Below are positions 9,675-15,261 of a stretch of 35,998 bases of DNA, piece after piece. Numbering within the stretch: the first letter of the stretch is position 1; each line of letters opens with the position of its first letter. Made by a program: the position numbers and the translations under genes. Source of the DNA: a virus; the IMG/VR virus record IMGVR_UViG_3300032085_000175, positions 1 to 35,998 of that record. One strand, given 5' to 3'. Below the pieces are notes generated by a model, which was not told the DNA's origin, searched no databases, and saw nothing but the letters and a program-made list of their open reading frames with translations.

Positions 9675-9973
9675 TACGATTCTCCTACAGCTTTCTGTCT
9701 AACTGATTCATACTCTACATCATCCAGCAAGTTAGTCAAATGATTTTTAGCTTCTTTGATGTCATCCTTCAAACGATCAATATCATTCTTAGCATCTTCC
9801 AGATACTCAAAGAGGCTGTTGATTTTATCCTGTTTAGTCCACGACATATCACCTTCACAGGTATGGTTCACGTTAATCCCACGTTCCACATCATTGCGGT
9901 ATCCTTCCGCACGATTAATTACAGTGTGTAAATCGCTTTCGATCTCTCTGATCTGCTTAATAATATTTTCCAT
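9674..9973 (-). CDS. Coiled-coil hypothetical protein, 99 aa
   Basis: Mostly heptad-patterned helix: KQIREIESDLHTVINRAEGY at the start and EYLEDAKNDIDRLKDDIKEA in the second half, so probably an oligomeric coiled coil. It ends KAVGES, the same last residues as the gene upstream, because both 3' ends carry the next gene's ribosome binding site (GTAGGAGAATCRTAATG). Function unknown. Confidence 0.75.
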   Translation of the reverse strand: MENIIKQIREIESDLHTVINRAEGYRNDVERGINVNHTCEGDMSWTKQDKINSLFEYLEDAKNDIDRLKDDIKEAKNHLTNLLDDVEYESVRQKAVGES

Positions 9974-10173
9974 TATGATTCTCCTACAGCTCTCTGTTTT
10001 AGATCTTCTGCTTCACGCATTGCATCCCATGCCAGACTGTATGCCATGATAGCATATGCACTATTGTCCAATTCCTCTTCTGTGAAATGCTTCTTGAATA
10101 CTGCGGCAATCTCTCTGTCAGCATCCTTTAGTATCTCAGAAATAATACCTAGTACGTTTACTTCTTTTTCCAT
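9973..10173 (-). CDS. Small helical hypothetical protein, 66 aa
   Basis: First gene of the minus-strand arm. MEKEVNVLGIISEILKDADR opens a helical protein ending QRAVGES. A strong ribosome binding site AAAGGAGAC lies 7 nt before the ATG. The transcript that includes it must start in the control region to the right (10174-11023), but I could not find a convincing minus-strand -10/-35 pair there. No family recognised. Confidence 0.78.
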   Translation of the reverse strand: MEKEVNVLGIISEILKDADREIAAVFKKHFTEEELDNSAYAIMAYSLAWDAMREAEDLKQRAVGES

Positions 10174-10213
10174 CGGTAGTCTCCTTTGTTACAATTTAGA
10201 ATCACCTTACATA

Positions 10214-10322
10214 TTTCCACTGGTGGGGTCAAGCTCTATATTTCCTAGATGCGTTCCGCATTTCCACTGGTGGGGTCACGGTCATTTTCCACTGGTGGGG
10301 TCTTAATTTCCACTGGAGGGAG
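10214..10322 (+). repeat. Four-copy 17-bp direct repeat array (TTTCCACTGGTGGGGTC)
   Basis: Copies at 10214-10230, 10261-10277 and 10286-10302 are identical; 10307-10322 is degenerate (TTTCCACTGGAGGGAG). Start-to-start spacing is 47, 25 and 21 bp. Further copies of the TTTCCACTG core, in the same orientation, lie at 2752, 3335, 3664, 5614 and 35988. The array lies just upstream of the minus-strand arm, like iterons or an operator/leader array. Confidence 0.8.
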
Positions 10323-10955
10323 TGTTCCCGATTCGTTCCAGTGTTCCTGATTCGTTCTCGATTCATGATTCGTTTCTGATTCGTTCCAAACTACCGATTC
10401 GGATAGATCCAAAATTGCTGTCAATGGCACAAAAGGATAGTTAACAAGATATTTCGGATAGTGTGATTTATTTACAACGATTCGCAACAAAGATTCACTT
10501 GACACAAGATTCTGCTTTACGAATCGGACTCTACTCGATAACGCAACAAGCGAATCACTTAAACCTGAGTCTTTTGATATGGTATTTTTAAACGTCATGA
10601 TTCGTTTTTGGCATATCGTGCAATCTATCCGTCAATTGTTATTTTTGCATACCAGCCATGCGTTTTATGCATAACGGGTTATAGAATAATTCTAACTATC
10701 GGTAAAAGTGTATAGTTTAATGATTAAACAATAGCTTGACTCAAGGTTTTGAATGTGACTCACAAGATTCAACCTTAAAGTGTAAAATCTACAAAATAGG
10801 GTGATTCTTACAACCAGAATACGTGTCAACCCCAGGGAACAAAAGTGAACACTCGATATTAGCGCCCCTGAGTGTACCGAATCGAATTTTATGAGTCAGA
10901 CTATGCAAAACCTTTGCCCCTACTCATTGAGCGTTTTTGAGCCTCTGAGGCCCTG

Positions 10956-10983
10956 TTGCGCTGCTTGTCCTGTCTGCTATACT
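10956..10983 (+). promoter_or_regulatory. Candidate promoter for the 11-kb small-gene cluster
   Basis: TTGCGC (10956-10961), 16-bp spacer, TATACT (10978-10983), about 40 nt before the first ATG of the cluster. The -35 is weak. A short palindrome lies just upstream. Confidence 0.4.
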
Positions 10984-11023
10984 GATTCCAGTCTTTAACC
11001 TTTACCGATTCGGGAGTCTTAAA

Positions 11024-11188
11024 ATGGATTATCAAACCTTAGATCTTAAACTATCACTACATGAGGCGCAATTTTTAGAGGGCTTGCTTTCTAAAACTGG
11101 AGTCCCCGAATGTAAGAAAGACTTGCTTTGGCAAATTGAAAGCATAGCCTACGAATTAAAATTAGTTAAATCTCATATGGAGTCTTAA
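11024..11188 (+). CDS. Small helical hypothetical protein, 54 aa
   Basis: MDYQTLDLKLSLHEAQFLEG, then KKDLLWQIESIAYELKLV, ending SHMES: two amphipathic helices. The ATG follows GGGAGTCTTAAA, a ribosome binding site with a GAGTC site inside it. The same cassette, including the MDYQ codons, recurs at 11501-11523. The stop is one base from the next ATG. Function unknown. Confidence 0.7.
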   Translation: MDYQTLDLKLSLHEAQFLEGLLSKTGVPECKKDLLWQIESIAYELKLVKSHMES

Positions 11189-11189
11189 A

Positions 11190-11510
11190 ATGTTACATGA
11201 GAAACAAGCAAAATCAGTGATTAGAAAAATGATACGCAAGGCCAAGCAAGATTGGACAACGGCAATATATATCATAGACCCATATGAAGAAGAAAACCTT
11301 GTGGAAGACTCTAGCCAATTAGAGCGTGATTTATTAAATGCGGTTTTTGGAGTAGACGAGTCGCATATCAGATTCATTAATATGACAACGGGTCAATACT
11401 TAGGCGGCGCTCACATTGTTTTAGAATATGATCGTTTACCAGATGAAATAATATCAGACTATACAGACAACCAATATATGAATCGTCTAGTCAAACATGC
11501 GGAGTCTTAA
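11190..11510 (+). CDS. Hypothetical protein, 106 aa
   Basis: MLHEKQAKSVIRKMIRKAKQ is a basic amphipathic helix. The rest is acidic with mixed alpha/beta character (IYIIDPYEEENLVEDSSQLE, GAHIVLEYDRLPDEII). It begins one base after the previous stop with the GGAGTCTTAAAATG cassette and ends in the next copy of that cassette. No family recognised; the basic N terminus could contact nucleic acid. Confidence 0.72.
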   Translation: MLHEKQAKSVIRKMIRKAKQDWTTAIYIIDPYEEENLVEDSSQLERDLLNAVFGVDESHIRFINMTTGQYLGGAHIVLEYDRLPDEIISDYTDNQYMNRLVKHAES

Positions 11511-11511
11511 T

Positions 11512-11694
11512 ATGGATTATCAATTGCGCATAAGAGACGTTTTAGGCTGGTTTTTGGCTATGATGCTATTACTTGCGGCAATGTATTGCTTGCCTTATCT
11601 AACACTCTTAGAGCCGTTCCATGACGAATGCGGAGTCGGTATCATGACTCAAAATAGTGGCGGCTTTTATATCAATCTTGTTTGTAAGGGATAA
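11512..11694 (+). CDS. Small single-pass membrane protein, 60 aa
   Basis: I chose the ATG at 11512 over one five codons upstream because the GGAG ribosome binding site at 11501 fits it and it repeats the MDYQ start of the gene at 11024. One transmembrane helix VLGWFLAMMLLLAAMYCLPY (about 8-27) is followed by a short outer part with two cysteines. It could be a small inner-membrane effector; no function can be assigned. Confidence 0.68.
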   Translation: MDYQLRIRDVLGWFLAMMLLLAAMYCLPYLTLLEPFHDECGVGIMTQNSGGFYINLVCKG

Positions 11695-11700
11695 ACACAA

Positions 11701-12597
11701 ATGAAACGCACAAACACAATAAACCTATTAAACGACATAAAGCCTAGACTCTATAATGGTTTTAAATCTAAAGCCGAATGCTTGCGAGTAATCCGCAAGG
11801 CTGGTTTTAATTTTACTTCTGCTCTAGGTGCTGTCGAGTCTAATCCTAAGATTGCAAAAAATAGTAAACTTGGAGTCCTGAGTCGTGGTCATAACTTTGC
11901 ACCAGCAAAAACAGCTGGCTATTACTTCAAGCAATCTAGCAAAGGTTTACGCAAGGTTTTAATTAATACTTGCTCAGAAGCTAGTCTAGGCTGTGCTGAG
12001 GCTTGTTTACATACCGCTGGAAACCCTATCTATCTACCCAATAAGGTAAAGGCTCGCATTGCTAGGACTCAAGCCTTTTACAATGTAAGGAAAGCCTATC
12101 TAGCTTTAGTATGTTTTGAGATTGAGTCCCATTTACGCAAGGCTATTAGCCTTAATATGATATGCGGAATCCGACTTAATACGACTTCTGACACACCTTT
12201 TGAATCCGTATATCTTGACGATGGAAAGACTATCTTTGAAACATTCCCGCAAGTCGACTTTATGGACTACACAAAGCGCTTCAAGGCTATGCTTAGGTTT
12301 TGTGCTGGTAACATGCCTAGCAATTATCACTTGACGTTTAGCAAGTCGGAATCCAACTGGGATCAATGCTTGGAAGTCTTAAAGGCTGGCGGCAATGTTG
12401 CGGCGGTGTTTGATAAGCTCCCAGAGTCCTATGCTGGTTACACTGTTATTAATGGCGATGAATCCGACTGGCGCCCTATGGATCAAAAAAATGTTATAGT
12501 AGGACTCAAGGCTAAAGGCTTGGCACGTAACGACAACTCGGGATTTACAATCCGCACAACAACAACAACAACAACACAAGAAAAGGAAACAATCTAA
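11701..12597 (+). CDS. Gp88-like phage protein, 298 aa
   Basis: Recognised from LGVLSRGHNFAP (about 57-68) followed by the cysteine cluster CSEASLGCAEACLHTAGN (C91, C98, C102), the hallmark of the mycobacteriophage Gp88 family. The molecular role of that family is not known to me. The middle (LTFSKSESNWDQC and NVAAVFDK) is also conserved in type. The C terminus is a threonine run from an ACA microsatellite (about 12555-12576), which may slip. The stop overlaps the ATG of the next gene. Twelve or so GANTC sites lie inside, in several frames, more than the neighbouring arms would predict. Confidence 0.72.
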   Translation: MKRTNTINLLNDIKPRLYNGFKSKAECLRVIRKAGFNFTSALGAVESNPKIAKNSKLGVLSRGHNFAPAKTAGYYFKQSSKGLRKVLINTCSEASLGCAEACLHTAGNPIYLPNKVKARIARTQAFYNVRKAYLALVCFEIESHLRKAISLNMICGIRLNTTSDTPFESVYLDDGKTIFETFPQVDFMDYTKRFKAMLRFCAGNMPSNYHLTFSKSESNWDQCLEVLKAGGNVAAVFDKLPESYAGYTVINGDESDWRPMDQKNVIVGLKAKGLARNDNSGFTIRTTTTTTTQEKETI

Positions 12598-12806
12598 TGA
12601 CATTGATTGCAAACTATCCATCCAAGAAAGCATGTAAGGAAAGCATAGGCGAGCCGCTCAAGTATATTGAGACAAGCATATTCGGCGCTGAGTATACGCC
12701 TAACGGGACTCTTACGGTAGCCAATAGACCCCATATAACCAACAACGGGCGTGAATGGTTTGGGCAAGTGACAATGAGAAACGGTTTGATTGAGAAAGTA
12801 ACATAG
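12597..12806 (+). CDS. Small hypothetical protein, 69 aa, partner of the Gp88-like gene
   Basis: MTLIANYPSKKACKESIGEP, then NGTLTVANRPHITNNGREWF and GQVTMRNGLIEKVT. Proteins of this form are often next to Gp88-like genes in phages (recalled, not searched). It overlaps the previous stop (TAATGA), so the two are coupled. Last gene before the terminator at 12845. Function unknown. Confidence 0.75.
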   Translation: MTLIANYPSKKACKESIGEPLKYIETSIFGAEYTPNGTLTVANRPHITNNGREWFGQVTMRNGLIEKVT

Positions 12807-12844
12807 CAACCGCTTAATATAAAGCCCATAGAATAACCTTAGAG

Positions 12845-12880
12845 TCCTGTTAGGCTAATACCCTAGCAGGATTCTTTTTT
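12845..12880 (+). terminator. Rho-independent terminator after the Gp88-like cluster
   Basis: Ten-bp stem TCCTGTTAGG / CCTAGCAGGA (12845-12854 with 12862-12871, one G-U pair), 7-nt loop, then TTCTTTTTT. It separates the small-gene cluster from the packaging operon. Its arms are flanked by GAGTC and GATTC. Confidence 0.85.
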
Positions 12881-12959
12881 GCGTTGTGTATAGCGCTTAT
12901 ATTGGCTCTCGTGGCTTGTGTTATAATATAACAGAGTCAATTGTTTACTTGCCTATTAC

Positions 12960-13083
12960 TTGCGAATGATTCTCATTATCAATAACGAGTCTTGTTGCGA
13001 ATGATTATCAATAGTGCAGCCGATTCGCTCGCCAAGCGCAAGAATTTATTTTTTGTCAAGTGATTCGTTTGTTGTTATCAATA
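12960..13083 (+). repeat. TTATCAATA iteron-like repeats, possible origin
   Basis: TTATCAATA occurs at 12976-12984, 13005-13013 and 13075-13083. The first two sit in a longer shared unit (TTGCGAATGATT then TTATCAATA; the first carries an extra CTCA). Each matches 7 of 9 bases of the DnaA box TTATCCACA. An AT-rich run lies between copies two and three. It could be an origin or a repressor-binding site. Confidence 0.45.
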
Positions 13084-13094
13084 GTTTAGCAAGA

Positions 13095-13163
13095 GTCAAC
13101 CCCAGATCACAAATTGTTTCAGTCTTGTAACATTCAATCACATTTTTACACTGGGGGGTTGAC
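13095..13163. repeat. Interrupted inverted repeat overlapping a -35 box
   Basis: GTCAACCCCAG (13095-13105) and CTGGGGGGTTGAC (13151-13163) pair over 11 bp apart from two extra G. The right arm includes the TTGAC of the promoter at 13159. Another GTCAACCCCAG is at 10825-10835. Confidence 0.5.
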
Positions 13164-13187
13164 ATTCGTTGGGACCCTCTGTATTAT
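13159..13187 (+). promoter_or_regulatory. Strong sigma-70-type promoter toward the packaging operon
   Basis: TTGACA (13159-13164), 17-bp spacer, TATTAT (13182-13187). A GATTC site lies near the expected start point. It lacks the TGTATCCC element of the other phage promoters, so it may be the early, host-sigma-read one. Confidence 0.7.
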
Positions 13188-13370
13188 ACGCAGGTGATTC
13201 GGTTGGGGGCTGTTTCCACCCACATCTATAACATAAGAATTTTACTTCGACCCTGTATCTACTGTGGTATTTATGCAACAGTATACGACATGCGCTACCC
13301 ACTTAAGTCAACTACAAGAAAAAAGAATCATTGGTAATCAACGACTTATAAAATAATTAAAATAGTTAGG

Positions 13371-13400
13371 TTGACAAACTCATAAATGTATCCCTATAGT
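13371..13400 (+). promoter_or_regulatory. Phage-type promoter for the packaging/structural operon
   Basis: TTGACA (13371-13376), 18-bp spacer ending AATGTATCCC, -10 TATAGT (13395-13400). It shares TGTATCCCTAT with the two minus-strand promoters at 1962-1991 and 5880-5909. Confidence 0.78.
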
Positions 13401-13415
13401 ATAGTAGGAGCTATA

Positions 13416-13500
13416 CTTAAGTATATACTTAAGATCTCAACTTATCATATTATAATACTAGATAGATTAAGAAACTTAAGTTTATACTTAAGTATAGGTA
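13416..13500. promoter_or_regulatory. AT-rich palindromes downstream of the late promoter
   Basis: A perfect 18-bp palindrome CTTAAGTATATACTTAAG at 13416-13433 and a near-perfect one CTTAAGTTTATACTTAAG at 13475-13492. The first contains AAGTATATACTT, starting 18 nt after the -10, exactly as in the primase promoter. They are operator candidates or transcript hairpins. Confidence 0.55.
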
Positions 13501-13538
13501 GTACCAATAGTAGCACTAGCTACGCAAGGTGAAACATT

Positions 13539-13940
13539 ATGAGCGTCCACGATAAGATCCCCTATAGTGAAGTGATAGCCAAGAAGGTTAGAGAAGGTAT
13601 TCGTAGTGGAGTATCTGTTAAAGATATTCTTAGTAGTATTCAGAAGTATCAGAATGCCCCTTCAAGTACAGCTACCTTCTATAAACTATATGGTGAGGAC
13701 ATAGCTGAAGAGAAGGCTTCTATTGTAGGTGCTGTAGGTTCTGTAGTTGTACAGCAAGCATTAGAAGGTGACTTCAAGTCTCAGGAACTATTTCTTCGTA
13801 GTAAGGGTGGTTGGTCACCTACATCTACAGTAAATGAGGTGGATCAAGTTGAAGACCCCGATGTAGATGAGTCAGCTATAGACTCCTTGATGACCTTATT
13901 AGGTAAGACCCGTATAGATGATAACAGCGCAAGTACTTAG
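13539..13940 (+). CDS. Terminase small subunit
   Basis: 133 aa, directly before and overlapping the large subunit. The N-terminal half has a helix-turn-helix-like segment (VREGIRSGVSVKDILSSIQK), then TATFYKLYGEDI and a helical core GAVGSVVVQQALEGDFKSQE that ends FLRSKGGW, a pattern usual in phage TerS proteins. The C terminus is acidic. It is expected to bind the packaging start site and load the large subunit. The assignment rests on position, size and pattern rather than on a strong motif. Confidence 0.72.
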   Translation: MSVHDKIPYSEVIAKKVREGIRSGVSVKDILSSIQKYQNAPSSTATFYKLYGEDIAEEKASIVGAVGSVVVQQALEGDFKSQELFLRSKGGWSPTSTVNEVDQVEDPDVDESAIDSLMTLLGKTRIDDNSAST

Positions 13941-15261
13941 AGATTTACCAGACTCTGATGTAGCTGCACTATTACAAGAACTAGGCCCTAAGAAGACTGA
14001 AGAGTTACAACACAACTGGGAATTTTGGGCTAGACCTGAACAGTTAGAACCAGAAGGTATATGGAATGTTTGGGTTGCACTTGCTGGTCGTGGCTGGGGT
14101 AAGACCCGTGCAGGTTCAGAGTGGGTCAGACACAGAATTAAGAAGGGCGATAAGATCGTCCACTGTGTTGCACCTACTAAAGGTGATGTTCGCAGGGTTA
14201 TGGTTGAGGGTGACTCAGGTCTACTCAATGTCTGTTGGAAGGGTGATAAGACATATAGGGGAAAGCATATCGGATTTCCTACTTGGTCACCTACCAACAA
14301 TACTCTGACATGGGAGAATGGCTCTAAGGCTGTATTCTTCTCCGCTGAAGACCCAGAGAGATTACGTGGGCCACAAGCCTACTCAGCATGGACAGACGAA
14401 CTCTGTGCATGGAGAAATGCCCAAGAAACTTGGGATATGCTACAGTTTGGTTTACGTTTAGGTAAGCGTCCTCAAGTGTTTGTAACGACGACACCTAAGA
14501 CAACCAAACTGATACGCACAATACTAGACGATGATAAGACTACCATTAGCAAAGGGAGTACCTATGATAATGCAGCCAATCTAGCAGATACCTTCTTAGA
14601 TGCAGTAAAGAAGACTTATGAGGGAACAAGGTTAGGTAGACAAGAACTATATGCAGAAATACTTGATGAAGCATCTGGCGCATTATGGAATAGACAACAA
14701 CTTGCTAAGTGTGAGATAGACAAGGATGACGTACCATCTCTTAATAGGGTGGTTGTTTCTATCGATCCAGCTATTACGTCAAATGCAGAAAGTGACATGA
14801 CTGGTATTGTAGTTGCTGGTGTAGATGTCAATGGTATAGCTTACGTCTTAGAAGACCACACAGGTAGATATACTCCTCAACAGTGGGCATCCAAAGCTGT
14901 AGAACTCTATAGAGAACATATGGCTGATAGGATTGTAGCTGAACGAAACCAAGGTGGCGACATGGTTCGTCACACATTACACACAGAAGATGAAACAGTC
15001 CCAGTAAAGCTCGTACATGCATCCAGAGGGAAGATGGCACGGGCTGAACCTGTCTCTGCACTATATGAACAGGATAAGGTTAAACACGTAAGAGGACTTA
15101 ATGATTTAGAAGATCAGATGGTACAGTGGGAACCTCTAGGGTCCATAGGCTCACCAGACCGTCTTGATGCTTTAGTTTGGGCTATAACGGACCTCTCATT
15201 GAATGGCTACGCAAAACCTACGCTTAAATTAGCGTATAGTAGCGCCAAAGGATTAAGGTAA
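13918..15261 (+). CDS. terL: Terminase large subunit
   Basis: 447 aa. The N-terminal ATPase has Walker A ALAGRGWGKTRAG (GRGWGKT at 57-63), Walker B ending WTDE (158-161) and coupling motif VTTTPKTTK (about 189-197). The C-terminal RNase H-like nuclease shows VVVSIDPAI with D283, IVAERNQGGDM and a last acidic motif in DRLDALVWAI. This is the Terminase_6 type shared with gene transfer agents and HK97-like phages. It drives DNA into the procapsid through the portal. It overlaps the small subunit by 23 nt and its stop meets the portal ATG (TAATG). Confidence 0.95.
   Translation: MITAQVLRDLPDSDVAALLQELGPKKTEELQHNWEFWARPEQLEPEGIWNVWVALAGRGWGKTRAGSEWVRHRIKKGDKIVHCVAPTKGDVRRVMVEGDSGLLNVCWKGDKTYRGKHIGFPTWSPTNNTLTWENGSKAVFFSAEDPERLRGPQAYSAWTDELCAWRNAQETWDMLQFGLRLGKRPQVFVTTTPKTTKLIRTILDDDKTTISKGSTYDNAANLADTFLDAVKKTYEGTRLGRQELYAEILDEASGALWNRQQLAKCEIDKDDVPSLNRVVVSIDPAITSNAESDMTGIVVAGVDVNGIAYVLEDHTGRYTPQQWASKAVELYREHMADRIVAERNQGGDMVRHTLHTEDETVPVKLVHASRGKMARAEPVSALYEQDKVKHVRGLNDLEDQMVQWEPLGSIGSPDRLDALVWAITDLSLNGYAKPTLKLAYSSAKGLR

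Follow-up and report, generated by a model that had tools for sequence, protein, structure and literature searches.

An island of GANTC sites between the replication and packaging operons of a CRP-6-type roseophage: a candidate control region marked by host methylation

The DNA analysed here, virus record IMGVR_UViG_3300032085_000175 of IMG/VR at its full length of 35,998 nucleotides (the window), contains a 3.1-kb island of GANTC, the target word of the CcrM/GcrA systems of Alphaproteobacteria. The window phage (W; L-numbers denote the relative phage loci or host genome loci compared with it) is a CRP-6-type roseophage, its terminase and GP88-family protein being 85% and 53% identical, respectively, to those of Roseobacter phage CRP-6 (MK613348), a cultured phage whose isolation host is RCA strain FZCC0042 (PMC6918029). 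As CRP-6 comprises 44.9 kb, the window record of 36.0 kb is probably incomplete. The island occupies the gap between a leftward replication operon and a rightward packaging operon, which bears out its earlier placement in a control region, and holds a leader (about 0.8 kb), five small rightward genes, one of them of the GP88 family, a terminator-like hairpin and promoter-like sites. The features are as follows.

Up to about 10.17 kb, leftward: replication operon with nucleases, DNA polymerase A, primase-helicase, a sigma-factor-like protein and thymidylate synthase.
10199..13330: GANTC island, 56 GANTC (17.8/kb), found at the same place in CRP-6 and many relatives.
10214..10320: direct repeats of approximately TTTCCACTGGTGGGG, candidate iterons or operator of the leftward operon.
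10330..10603: leader array adjoining the direct repeats, 14 GANTC over about 270 bp, with YGATTCG (the GcrA-type extended motif) frequent among them.
10390..10490: conserved block of about 100 bp inside the array, matched by 30 compared loci, three of which are cuts of the window itself.
11024..11188, plus strand: small gene, 54 amino acids; its putative ribosome site GGGAGTC contains a GANTC (11014).
11190..11510, plus strand: gene, 106 amino acids, matching phrog_5680 weakly; GGAGTC as putative ribosome site (GANTC 11180).
11497..11694, plus strand: small gene, 65 amino acids as listed; the true start may be the in-frame ATG at 11512, which follows a putative ribosome site GGAGTC (GANTC 11502).
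11701..12597, plus strand: GP88-family gene (PF17338), 298 amino acids, with 12 GANTC against 4.9 in synonymous shuffles.
12597..12806, plus strand: small gene, 69 amino acids, with homologues in L010, L028 and L030.
12841..12880, plus strand: terminator-like hairpin with a 14-bp stem in which GAGTC pairs with GATTC (G-T wobble), so that both arms contain a GANTC.
13159..13201, plus strand: sigma-70-like promoter TTGACA-17-TATTAT (11/12), with TGATTCG 7 bases further at 13195-13201.
13371..13400, plus strand: second sigma-70-like promoter (11/12), at the right edge of the island and preceding the packaging operon.
From 13539, rightward: packaging and virion operon.

The window contains 99 GANTC by exact count, with 56 in 10199-13330, 14 to the left and 29 to the right, where base composition predicts approximately 3.1-3.8 per kb throughout. 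The first-pass annotation, made from the sequence alone, had estimated about 56 sites in about 3.1 kb, which is exact, and 13 and about 30 in the left and right arms, which shift slightly while the depletion of both arms stands. In 1000 dinucleotide-preserving shuffles the island yields 9.9 ± 2.9 sites with a maximum of 22, placing the observed number 5.7-fold above the shuffle, and in 200 such shuffles of each arm the left yields 30.6 ± 5.1 (minimum 18) and the right 73.8 ± 8.0 (minimum 54). Density is highest in the leader (10199-11023, 24 sites, 29/kb), followed by 12807-13334 (10 sites, 18.9/kb) and the genes (22 sites, 12.3/kb). For the 298-amino-acid gene, the 12 sites were reached by none of 2000 codon-preserving shuffles (4.9 ± 1.35), and the excess in the four small genes is individually non-significant under the same test (2 vs 1.8, 5 vs 3.4, 3 vs 1.4, 1 vs 0.4). 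Set against the remainder of the window, the island has GA.TC as its most over-represented gapped word (56, with 4.1 expected). Local composition, named in the first-pass annotation as an outcome that would refute the island, and chance are rejected by dinucleotide and synonymous-codon shuffles alike, and the earlier claim of a DNA-level signal tied to the CcrM motif is upheld.

Selection acts on the GANTC word and its density at the level of DNA, as shown by centre bases that differ from site to site, by one-mismatch words that are not clearly enriched and by sites that span leader, ribosome sites, terminator and coding DNA. Across 11 related islands with 527 sites, densities range from 10.7 to 23 per kb, unique contexts are divided almost equally between T-centred (212) and G-centred (211), and the flanks carry little information. 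The 12 one-mismatch words (six complementary pairs) show no clear enrichment in W and CRP-6, the largest values being 28 vs 22.0 and 21 vs 19.0. A tandem or iteron array with a unit above 5 bp was rejected as the source of the sites, with only short repeats in the leader and 423 distinct 17-base contexts among the 527 sites. The GP88 genes of W, CRP-6, L028, L030, L071 and L010 contain 12, 15, 12, 27, 21 and 12 GANTC, in every case more than in synonymous shuffles of the same gene (means 4.9-9.9, P ≤ 0.001), and those of six other phages, which are without an island in the stretch examined, contain 0-1. Since the GP88 genes of W and L030 have just 4 sites in common out of 12 and 27, density persists while individual sites turn over. 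In comparisons of close relatives, 325 of 364 sites were conserved, the figure for control gapped palindromes being 479 of 663; these rows are not independent. The L030 copy (L030:3894-4871) is a mosaic whose ends resemble the window copy and whose middle resembles that of L071, a sign of recombination inside the cassette, and the L010 copy contains an internal stop.

The island is found at the same place in many metagenomic relatives and exceeds its own shuffles roughly 4-7-fold. In CRP-6, read in the orientation of the window, the first 2.75 kb contain 38 GANTC and the other 42.2 kb contain 31, where shuffles give a mean of 161. The gene content of the cassette differs between phages. A GP88 cassette is present in W, CRP-6, L010, L028, L030 and L071. 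In L082 and L083 the cassette has a gene of 244-263 amino acids, which in L083 partly matches DUF7227 and to which a piece in L034 is related, and L047, L052 and L065 have other genes behind a leader array. A further type with a gene of about 496 amino acids is found in the island-free L021, L024, L029, L035 and L068. Because cassettes of differing gene content are GANTC-rich or GANTC-poor, the enrichment belongs to the cassette DNA rather than to one gene. GP88 was considered as the cause and rejected, as L034, L082 and L083 carry an island without a GP88 homologue (by clustering) and the six other GP88 phages have none in the stretch examined. L021, L024, L029, L035 and L037, with 97-99% identical terminases, are island-free and GANTC-poor in the stretch profiled.

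Inheritance of the island follows the replication genes. Among 18 phages having both genes, nine with and nine without an island, island state requires one change on the primase tree (0/500 shuffles as low) and five on the terminase tree (98-114/500 as low); these trees include near-copies (W, L015), have many weakly supported branches and count L065, dense in its leader alone, as an island. A primase tree of 25 rows, each extending at least 6.5 kb beyond the primase, requires three changes (0/500 shuffles as low); its additional rows L331, L360 and L385 are only nominally island-free, as their loci have no TerS match. Overall, 38 sequences were classed as 17 with an island, two with the array only and 19 with none, eight of the 19 being loci without a TerS match. 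The five changes on the terminase tree do not support the island having been gained just once, and L377 retains both island and primase with a terminase 69% identical to that of the window. The co-inheritance with primase shows that the island trait travels with the replication module. The first-pass annotation had held that relatives lacking the island while keeping the same genes would speak against it; the island-free relatives compared differ both in their cassette and in the lineage of their replication module.

Several other properties of the cassettes were observed. In the window (10199-13330) as in the island-free L021, L024, L029, L035, L037 and L068, AAAA/TTTT is far commoner in the cassette than in the remaining sequence; in the island-free L043, L046, L055 and L060 the leading word is instead CCAGG or CTAGGC. 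CAATTG is enriched in the islands as well, with 19 in nine pooled islands and 1 in their flanks. In the island-free L024, L029 and L068, a protein of 311-319 amino acids is encoded upstream of the cassette (e.g., L024 3988-4947, minus strand), which by eye resembles a DNA cytosine-5 methyltransferase.

Islands outside the CRP-6 group were sought in three pattern scans of viral contigs, which are samples and not a census. Among nine dense loci inspected closely, L106, L130, L159, L172, L175, L182 and L206 consist at least partly of repeated units or fixed gaps, L377 is of the CRP-6 type and L192 is non-repetitive. L164 is a 15-bp tandem array. A tandem-context filter applied to 329 loci (those below 4.5 kb were skipped) left nine, of which seven are of the CRP-6 type (L492, L494, L503, L554, L563, L154 and L517, the last sharing its contig name with L006), L109 matched no reference and L192 is another phage. 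L192, with a terminase of phrog_38, is thus the one clear case outside the CRP-6 group among the 329 loci. Upstream of its terminase genes, 1.75 kb contain 19 GANTC (shuffle 4.4 ± 2.0), and the other 12.3 kb contain 16 (shuffle 39.7); YGAKTCG accounts for 5 of the 19 island sites. Its island compared with nine CRP-6-type cassettes gave a best blastn E of 0.06 and no match between open reading frames at E 0.01. The L192 and window terminases show a weak local match (29% over 124 amino acids, E 5e-5), and L192 is therefore regarded as distantly related rather than unrelated. Of 80 relatives of L192 returned, 26 were profiled; L395 (the same sequence as L192), L396 and L411 have an island together with depletion (0.67-0.95/kb downstream), and the other 23, with terminases 50-84% identical, have neither (1.5-4.3/kb). 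Depletion and island thus occur together in the L192 clade, whereas in the CRP-6 group depletion is also found without an island. More widely, GANTC lies below composition in all ten other phages examined (0.08-0.62 of expectation, several being partial stretches), and no GANTC island was found in the four pelagiphage stretches examined.

The leader sites of the island match a published motif of GcrA. GcrA binds methylated GANTC, and in Caulobacter activation favours TGATTCG or YGAKTCK (PMC7987155). With this Caulobacter-derived motif, from which the window's host may differ, YGAKTCG is found at 14 of 33 noncoding island sites in W (one edge site not counted) and 10 of 14 in CRP-6, compared with 2/22 and 0/24 in island coding DNA and 2/43 and 3/31 outside the island, so that the extended motif is a property of noncoding island DNA only. 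T-centred noncoding sites of W and CRP-6 combined have a 5′ Y in 29 of 34 and a 3′ G in 25 of 34, the corresponding values outside being 24/45 and 8/45. A GANTC within about 40 bp of a sigma-70 start, as predicted from consensus, is present at the 13159-13187 promoter, where TGATTCG lies 7 bases past the -10 element. At the right-hand promoter, TTGACA, GGGACC and GATTCG occur in this order in 16 of the 49 sequences listed, all island carriers; the island-free L021, L024, L029, L035 and L068 have TTTCG at the homologous stretch and lack TTGACA.

Of 61 Rhodobacteraceae genomes, 57 encode a RAMA domain of the CcrM type, and GcrA was present in 5 of 5 genomes of the family, a family-level result from which the window's host may differ. 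Triple GATTCG at short distance occurs 32 times, some occurrences overlapping, in 21 of the 61 genomes, and the reversed pattern in none of the 61. Six of 12 fetched triple-GATTCG loci lie directly upstream of an RpoD-like start, two being confirmed as sigma-70 by Pfam, and clustered GATTCG thus recurs upstream of rpoD in Rhodobacteraceae. In L303, L305, L309, L310, L311 and L314, GANTC clusters that are mostly YGATTCG lie within about 90 bp upstream of rpoD, and L306 and L313 look similar by eye. These clusters are candidates for a conserved CcrM/GcrA control of the housekeeping sigma factor, a function suggested by their motif and position.

Taken together, the data favour, at about an even chance, an island that serves as a cis-acting control hub marked by host CcrM and read by GcrA with sigma-70, coupling early transcription to replication. 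Both the methylation of the sites and their use by GcrA are inferred. The mark would come from host CcrM because the phage seems to bring no methyltransferase of the CcrM class, and host GcrA together with sigma-70 RNA polymerase would then read the marks. Neither a PF01555 methyltransferase nor GcrA was found in the 10 CRP-6-type records searched, which are mostly fragments, and no other methyltransferase families were sought. If phage replication outpaces CcrM, daughter copies would become hemimethylated or unmethylated across the whole hub together, and early transcription would change state as the phage replicates, with either methylation state potentially being the on-state; the density of sites over 3 kb would make this change concerted. 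In vitro, GcrA protects approximately 40 nt of the fully methylated ctrA promoter and approximately 12 nt of the hemimethylated one, and cooperative binding was raised by the authors (PMC3667746). From this difference in footprint, closely spaced sites could be wrapped jointly in one state and released in the other, and sites every 20-60 bp would permit a wrapped state that replication dissolves. CcrM is described as distributive in PMC3667746 and as processive in a reference title in PMC6787082, and its mode of action is not used as support. A bolder version, which we hold to be possible but on balance doubtful, is a 3-kb methylation domain, genes included, that flips jointly between the fully methylated and the hemimethylated state as a replication counter or bistable early/late switch using only host enzymes, and that evolved independently in at least two phage lineages.

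A number of observations weigh against the control hub. Relatives with nearly identical packaging genes manage without an island, and the split on the primase tree has a support of 50 only. The window record is incomplete, and the methyltransferase search covered the PF01555 family only. The centre base varies at 6 of 56 sites compared with 25% of island columns, which is less than expected if only methylation mattered. No helical phasing of the sites was found, and therefore no sign of a regular protein lattice. The 22 sites within genes are unnecessary for promoter control alone and are mostly not of the GcrA type (YGAKTCG at 2 of 22). The looser YGAKTCK separates the island less well (noncoding island 19/33 and 10/14, outside 10/43 and 10/31), G-centred noncoding sites misfit the motif (5′ Y in 5 of 13, 3′ G in 0 of 13), and the extended motif was not seen in Brevundimonas (PMC7987155). 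The right-hand promoter is also inconsistent among relatives: L083 carries an island yet has TTTCG there, L047, L051, L052 and L057 have GATTCG without TTGACA, L065 and L066 have neither, and no match was found in L082, L072 and L085.

Alternatively, the island could be a methylation-gated replication origin of the phage, in which initiation or re-initiation would be controlled through the sites, in addition to transcription or in its place, much as through the GATC clusters of E. coli oriC or of the P1 origin. An origin would fit the island state following the primase rather than the terminase tree, the direct repeats that flank the array, a second repeat GTGACATTTTTGCAAC between GANTC sites in CRP-6 and a GC skew whose sign flips between 10 and 12 kb, and GANTC is known to rise near the origin of alphaproteobacterial chromosomes (PMC9836097). 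The skew is confounded by gene direction, however, and repeats of the TTTCCACTGGTGGGG type are present in relatives with and without an island (blast matches in L021, L024, L029, L035 and L037; alignment), TTTCCACTGG repeats occurring without GANTC in the island-free ones. Coding DNA makes up over half of the island, and no initiator or SeqA-like protein was identified, none having been sought. An origin is considered unlikely.

Less probable still is an operator array bound at GANTC or GATTCG by a phage or host protein other than GcrA, with methylation being incidental. The conservation of the middle base beyond expectation and the 3′ G of T-centred noncoding sites (25/34) agree with such a protein, but the flanks hold little information over all sites, centre bases are not the same from site to site, no one-mismatch word is clearly enriched and phasing is absent. 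The island might also function as a sink in the manner of a datA-type decoy, its copies titrating CcrM or GcrA and derailing the host cell cycle, which is very unlikely. Multiplied by many copies, 56 sites might compete in number with the 3900 that the Brevundimonas chromosome is stated to have (PMC7987155); a sink would gain from sites anywhere, yet the arms are depleted, and it needs neither the placement at early promoters nor the YGATTCG bias of the leader. Similarly improbable is an anti-silencing function, in which MucR-type silencers would be kept away from the early region by dense GANTC methylation. Competition between MucR and CcrM at GANTC is described for Caulobacter and Sinorhizobium (PMC5172544), but the reported effect of MucR is to protect GANTC from methylation, which points the opposite way unless methylation wins. 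Finally, restriction avoidance outside the island combined with recently acquired foreign DNA inside it, the other origin raised in the first-pass annotation, can be set aside with little hesitation: it accommodates the GANTC deficit of the ten other phages (see also PMC9516812) and the exchange of the cassette between phages, but foreign DNA should show approximately 3-4/kb and not 11-23/kb, GP88 homologues elsewhere have 0-1 sites, the excess is kept across different gene sets and stands roughly 4-7-fold above the islands' own shuffles, a cutting enzyme would punish 56 clustered sites, and with the island 5.7-fold above shuffle the depletion seen in the arms is not genome-wide.

Among the closest known counterparts is CRP-6 itself, which has the same genome plan and the same island. 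Methylation-controlled origins and P1 pac have dense GATC clusters spanning approximately 0.1-0.3 kb and resemble the island in that palindromes for adenine methylation are crowded into a replication-linked control region; the island differs in running for 3 kb through coding DNA, in using GANTC rather than GATC and in having no known SeqA. The CcrM/GcrA systems of Alphaproteobacteria share the GANTC target, and the leader sites match the reported GcrA motif TGATTCG/YGAKTCK, but the promoters named in the source sections drawn upon have one to four sites, and the phage island has 56 over 3.1 kb including genes. Pelagiphages show the same GANTC depletion over most of the genome (PMC9516812), and the sections of that paper concerned do not mention an enriched island. 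GANTC depletion in phages (PMC9516812) and its rise near chromosomal origins (PMC9836097) are therefore already known. The word GANTC is absent from the main text of the CRP-6 paper (PMC6918029), and no published description of a phage GANTC island was found in the open-licence literature searched. The GcrA-type motif of the leader, the co-inheritance with primase, the second clade's island without detectable homology and the GATTCG arrays upstream of a Rhodobacteraceae sigma-70 gene go beyond the first-pass annotation. Some alphaproteobacterial phages thus concentrate GANTC in one exchanged control cassette, which speaks against restriction as the sole cause of GANTC depletion. If methylation drives the island, these phages would read a host cell-cycle mark, and this would be an answer to how early expression is coupled to replication in phages of the abundant marine Roseobacter.

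Other observations concern the window and its surroundings. An Rfam search of 9900-13700 at the gathering threshold gave zero matches, and a structure prediction for GP88 with a mean predicted local distance difference test score (pLDDT) of 36.7 was not used. The sequence GAATGATTCTCATTATC at 12964-12980 resembles a Fur-type palindrome. The window terminase (13918-15261) shows 43-50% identity to terminase-like proteins in many alphaproteobacterial chromosomes, perhaps gene transfer agents or prophages. On the host side, the replicon around position 1501 of L304 is of plasmid type (RPA initiator, PF10134), and every one of its direct repeats includes GAATC. A second genome (G071, contig C4, 20245-20294) has a different repeat that also includes GAATC; GANTC may sit inside plasmid iterons.

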